Positions 42,864 through 45,193 of a stretch of DNA of 46,805 nt are shown piece by piece. Source of the stretch: Actinomycetota bacterium (GTDB taxonomy: Bacteria; Actinomycetota; Actinomycetes; Actinomycetales; Microbacteriaceae). The position numbers were made by a program, and so were the translations under genes. Under the pieces are notes generated by a model. That model did not search any database. It had not been told where the DNA came from and worked only from the letters and a program-made list of their open reading frames with translations. Position 1 is the first letter of the stretch, and every line of letters begins with the position of its first letter. The stretch covers positions 1-46,805 of the forward strand of contig JAAFHT010000009.1 in NCBI GenBank assembly GCA_013297625.1, written 5' to 3'.

Positions 42864-45193
<2,330 letters not shown>

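Follow-up and report, generated by a model that had tools for sequence, protein, structure and literature searches.

The lysC frame and its interruption

The lysC gene on this actinobacterial contig is crossed by an in-frame amber codon, which raises the question of whether aspartokinase has been lost from a living population or whether the sequence itself is at fault. The window, by which we mean the whole stretch of 46,805 nucleotides that was analysed, lies on contig C125 of a draft Microbacteriaceae genome (G000; 2.43 Mb in 181 contigs, 97.3% complete and 2.9% contaminated). Translation of the minus strand from a GTG at 45193 gives 73 aspartokinase codons, the TAG at 44974-44972, and then 347 in-frame codons that end in VVYAGTGR* at the natural TAG at 43930-43928, the stop at codon 74 being the sole interruption of a 421-codon frame. 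The features of the locus are as follows:

43928..45193, minus strand: lysC, aspartokinase alpha-subunit frame, with GTG start, 421 codons and natural stop TAG, broken at codon 74 (translation, and NCBIfam NF005153 over both halves)
44972..44974, minus strand: in-frame TAG at codon 74, GAG or GAA in homologues (Glu74 in C. glutamicum numbering, from the 3aaw alignment)
44963..44965, minus strand: codon 77, GCG (Ala) here and TCN (Ser) in 22 of 22 genus members; the sole further amino-acid change relative to the closest relative, G008
43928..44962, minus strand: possible restart ORF of 344 aa, beginning at ATG 44962 and lacking the KFGG motif and Glu74
43928..44446, minus strand: beta-subunit frame of 172 aa within lysC, from Met250 to the end, its ATG/GTG preceded by a purine-rich Shine-Dalgarno-like GAGGGAGA that is kept in most of the genus
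42864..43925, minus strand: asd, aspartate-semialdehyde dehydrogenase, intact and directly downstream of lysC

The original prediction held that the ORFs at 45193..44972 and 44962..43928 share a frame and together make a complete aspartate kinase, and the translation and the family model agree with it: the two halves match positions 1-73 (E 2.5e-36) and 75-421 (E 3.4e-174) of the 421-position model NF005153, consecutively and with neither overlap nor gap except for the stop codon. The TIGR00657 match is likewise above its cut-off. The gene thus has the full-length model match of a monofunctional alpha2beta2 aspartate kinase, while as sequenced it lacks both the active-site Glu74 of the GERIS motif and an uninterrupted alpha-subunit frame, one TAG lying inside it. 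The 421-residue aspartokinase chain 3aaw, which we take to be the C. glutamicum enzyme, is collinear with LysC of the window, and the missing residue is therefore number 74 in 3aaw numbering. Likeness to C. glutamicum LysC (3aaw/3ab4) extends to the length of 421 aa, the absence of register shifts (the downstream half aligning with chain 75-421), the internal beta start and the adjacent asd; the window differs in having TAG rather than Glu at codon 74 and Ala rather than Ser at residue 77. C. glutamicum aspartokinase has an alpha2beta2 arrangement (PMC6321352).

An antisense open frame of 303 aa also covers lysC (window 44300-45211, plus strand); GC-rich DNA of this codon bias is expected to contain such frames, and this one is probably no gene.

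Codon 74 and its neighborhood among relatives

Codon 74 is GAG in all 22 of the same-genus genomes compared, and GAG or GAA in every other locus aligned (approximately 108 loci in all, some 80 of them from beyond the genus), leaving TAG in the window alone; both the position of the stop and the loss of a conserved Glu had thus been called correctly. A genus-wide TIGR00657 search found a main lysC with an internal stop only in G000, and the frame is intact in every other genus genome in which codon 74 is covered. One further genome of the genus set, G019, carries a partial second lysC with an internal TGA (C3:208386-208643) near its intact lysC (205265-206482); the partial copy resembles what is left of a tandem duplication.

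The closest relative, G008, has the same gene order across the window; identity to it is roughly 92-96% along most of this stretch and about 95% for the stretch as a whole. Its LysC (L006) has an open frame with Glu74 and Ser77, and shares 419 of 421 residues with that of the window, with 30 synonymous differences and no indels. A C at position 44974 in a close relative had been named as the sign of a sequence error; G008 does carry it, although as a close but different species, so that this comparison holds at that distance and not within the species. The two exceptions are GAG to TAG at codon 74 and TCA to GCG at codon 77 (TCG in most of the genus). At both codons the first position shows a G/T exchange, the two lying 9 nt apart, and neither base occurs in any of the 22 genus members. 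A single G-to-T change, as originally proposed, does account for the stop itself, but the neighboring S77A had been missed: the ‘IAM’ that follows the stop marks a second window-specific change, since codon 77 encodes Ser in all of these genus members and Ala here.

By a simple estimate, two non-synonymous changes in a gene of 421 codons would land three codons or fewer apart with a probability of about 2x3/421 = 1.4%, and the position of the only two such lysC differences three codons apart therefore suggests a common local cause. However, close-set non-synonymous changes are also present in several other genes of the window, which carry more changes, and Ala at codon 77 (GERIA) occurs in two other Microbacteriaceae loci (L054 and L066), so S77A could be real and independent of the stop.

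Differences from G008 are distributed patchily along lysC, with none in 44571-44890 and nine in 44891-44978, which may reflect recombination between strains. This patchiness, together with the contaminated fraction of the draft, would also fit a mixed metagenome in which the assembler chose a minority strain’s null or foreign allele. Against such a mixture, the nearby differences other than these are ordinary synonymous ones, and G000 holds no second version of the region; we consider it extremely unlikely.

Selection on lysC and the search for a second aspartokinase

Relaxed selection or further lesions would be expected of a pseudogene, and neither was found. With 30 synonymous against 2 non-synonymous codons, and a protein that is 100% identical to that of G008 outside codons 74 and 77, lysC gives no sign of relaxed selection, and asd, which encodes the following step of the pathway, is likewise under constraint with its frame intact. 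An old pseudogene is ruled out by this clear purifying selection over the rest of the gene.

A back-up enzyme was also considered. As had been advised, G000 was searched for a second aspartate kinase, and TIGR00657 finds only one; the other AA_kinase family matches in the assembly are argB (acetylglutamate kinase), proB (glutamate 5-kinase) and pyrH (UMP kinase), and a second aspartokinase was accordingly rejected. In a plasmid collection, the sole match was an Arthrobacter gene, 70% identical.

The aspartate pathway supplies precursors for protein and for the cell wall, and loss of lysC should therefore be strongly selected against. This bears on the possibility of a real and very recent nonsense mutation, according to which the sampled cell line or dominant strain would have no alpha-subunit kinase activity and would need Lys, Thr, Met and the cell-wall diamino acid from outside. 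One point mutation would be enough for it, the beta-subunit start is intact, and there is no second kinase by which the loss would be masked. Yet the rest of lysC is without decay, asd is constrained and intact, and the gene, whose loss should be costly, is kept in all relatives. We regard such a mutation as possible but doubtful.

Possible decoding of the amber codon and fate of the predicted fragments

Suppression of the amber codon had been listed among the options. None of the 42 tRNA places in G000 (41 read by ARAGORN and one, at C78, by eye) has a CUA anticodon; because no tRNA for Phe, Asp or Glu-UUC was detected either and the set is thus incomplete, this is strong evidence, yet not absolute. 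RF1 (prfA) is present. TAG is not avoided as a stop: it terminates 14 of the 33 ORFs in the conserved set of the window (approximately 40%) as well as lysC itself, where the terminal TAG is kept across the genus as far as the alignment reaches. Given the lack of a CUA anticodon among the tRNAs found, the presence of RF1 and the common use of TAG as a stop, recoding of the lysC codon appears very unlikely, and we rejected it on TAG usage and RF1.

Two unusual tRNA-like places were noted in the course of the tRNA survey. One (L195:11998-12068, G000 C78) was found by Rfam and missed by ARAGORN, has CGG in its loop, and is perhaps degenerate or derived from a mobile element; the other (L190:17602-17677, G000 C56) is an ARAGORN Leu(TAA) tRNA of just 76 nt, as against 83-86 nt in the other Leu tRNAs.

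The in-frame ATG at 44962 does lie 12 nt past the stop, as predicted, a spacing that permits reinitiation, and the downstream frame is perfectly kept. The stop might on these grounds be tolerated, either through low-level read-through or a suppressor tRNA, or through active assembly of fragments 1-73 and 78-421. Apart from the tRNA, RF1 and stop-usage data given above, several observations stand against this. No Shine-Dalgarno-like sequence precedes ATG 44962, and residues 1-77, among them the N-terminal KFGG ATP motif and Glu74, would be missing from the restart product, which tells against the two-polypeptide option of the original prediction. The AKIII model profile puts Glu74 in register, to within one position, with E. 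coli Glu119, a residue joined by a salt bridge to the amino group of the substrate (PMC5481828). A location of Glu74 at the aspartate site also follows from the C. glutamicum enzyme, in whose inhibited state aspartate binding is reportedly blocked by an ionic bond between Arg151 and Glu74 (PMC6321352). The fragments are thus probably not active, judging from the residues they lack, and a tolerated stop seems highly unlikely. The beta subunit would still be made from codon 250, given its intact start, as a regulatory chain only, without the kinase domain.

Sequence quality around the amber codon

If the stop is an error, the assembly might be expected to contain others. No clear interior stop or coding frameshift was seen in the other conserved genes of the window, no stops were present in 61 ABC-ATPase matches, and no other convincing interior stop appeared in long ORFs over approximately 240 kb aligned to G008, of which about half was compared; the last comparison yielded a noisy list with many spurious ORFs, from which differences in start sites and ends were discounted by hand. 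A generally error-ridden assembly is not supported by these three clean samples. As the assembly seems clean elsewhere, an error at codon 74 would have to rest on a local fault and not on poor sequence overall, and the same cleanness counts in favor of a recent nonsense mutation.

Around the TAG, which comes immediately after GGC, the sequence is GC-rich and contains an inverted repeat. Both GGC and inverted repeats are contexts reported for Illumina miscalls, with GGC itself a poor predictor (PMC3622629). In the window, 6.8% of positions come after GGC on either strand, and the hairpin at the TAG site has a z-score of -1.16. Since GGC is common and predicts poorly, the hairpin is unremarkable by this score, and the contexts are derived from Illumina data that perhaps do not represent the platform used for this assembly, the context is a weak argument for a miscall.

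A quasi-palindrome (templated) mutation was considered as well: the codon 77 change does improve the local hairpin, but the weak z-score and the codon 74 change, which it leaves unexplained, led us to reject it. The hairpin comparison excludes L009, whose row came from the wrong strand. Nor was a convincing templating copy of the altered patch found elsewhere in G000, the best other match (in C40) having two mismatches.

Origin of the stop

The original list of options (sequencing or assembly error, pseudogene, suppression, restart) was a fair one, and it narrows to two: an error in sequencing or assembly, and a null allele that arose very recently. Of these we lean towards a local consensus error in the draft assembly as the probable source of the TAG. 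lysC is present in one copy, is under strong purifying selection over the rest of its length and has an intact operon partner in asd, and it carries two G/T exchanges, 9 nt apart, that are unique to the window. It is these features, together with the intact frames across the genus and the fragmented state of a 181-contig draft, that favor an error, and we infer a single local origin for the two changes. The apparent accuracy of the assembly elsewhere, the occurrence of Ala77 in L054 and L066, and the close pairs of changes in other window genes would all speak against it. lysC is an ordinary actinobacterial aspartokinase gene of the alpha2beta2 type, followed by asd, and on this reading it has remained functional up to now. 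Its internal TAG is most likely no fixed allele in the living population but a local consensus or base-calling fault of a fragmented draft, and the same fault may have introduced the neighboring S77A.

Lone nonsense errors and private nonsense alleles in draft genomes offer the nearest parallel, as they too consist of a single in-frame stop in an intact, constrained, single-copy gene; the window differs from them in its second unique amino-acid change 9 nt away, so that the fault perhaps extends beyond a single base. A literature search on premature stops in metagenome-assembled genomes gave no useful match.

We think it most improbable that the TAG is real and stable, either with a split aspartokinase (a 73-aa fragment, a restarted 344-aa fragment and the beta subunit) that is active enough, or in a natural aspartate-pathway auxotroph fed by its neighbors. 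If the stop were real, this would be an unusual case of natural auxotrophy: a free-living actinobacterium that lacks aspartokinase and requires several amino acids as well as a precursor of the cell wall. Whether error or recent dead allele, the lysC case is an ordinary one with nothing in it that points to new biology; as it stands, it mainly illustrates how a mistaken base or two in a draft genome can give an essential gene the look of a dead one.
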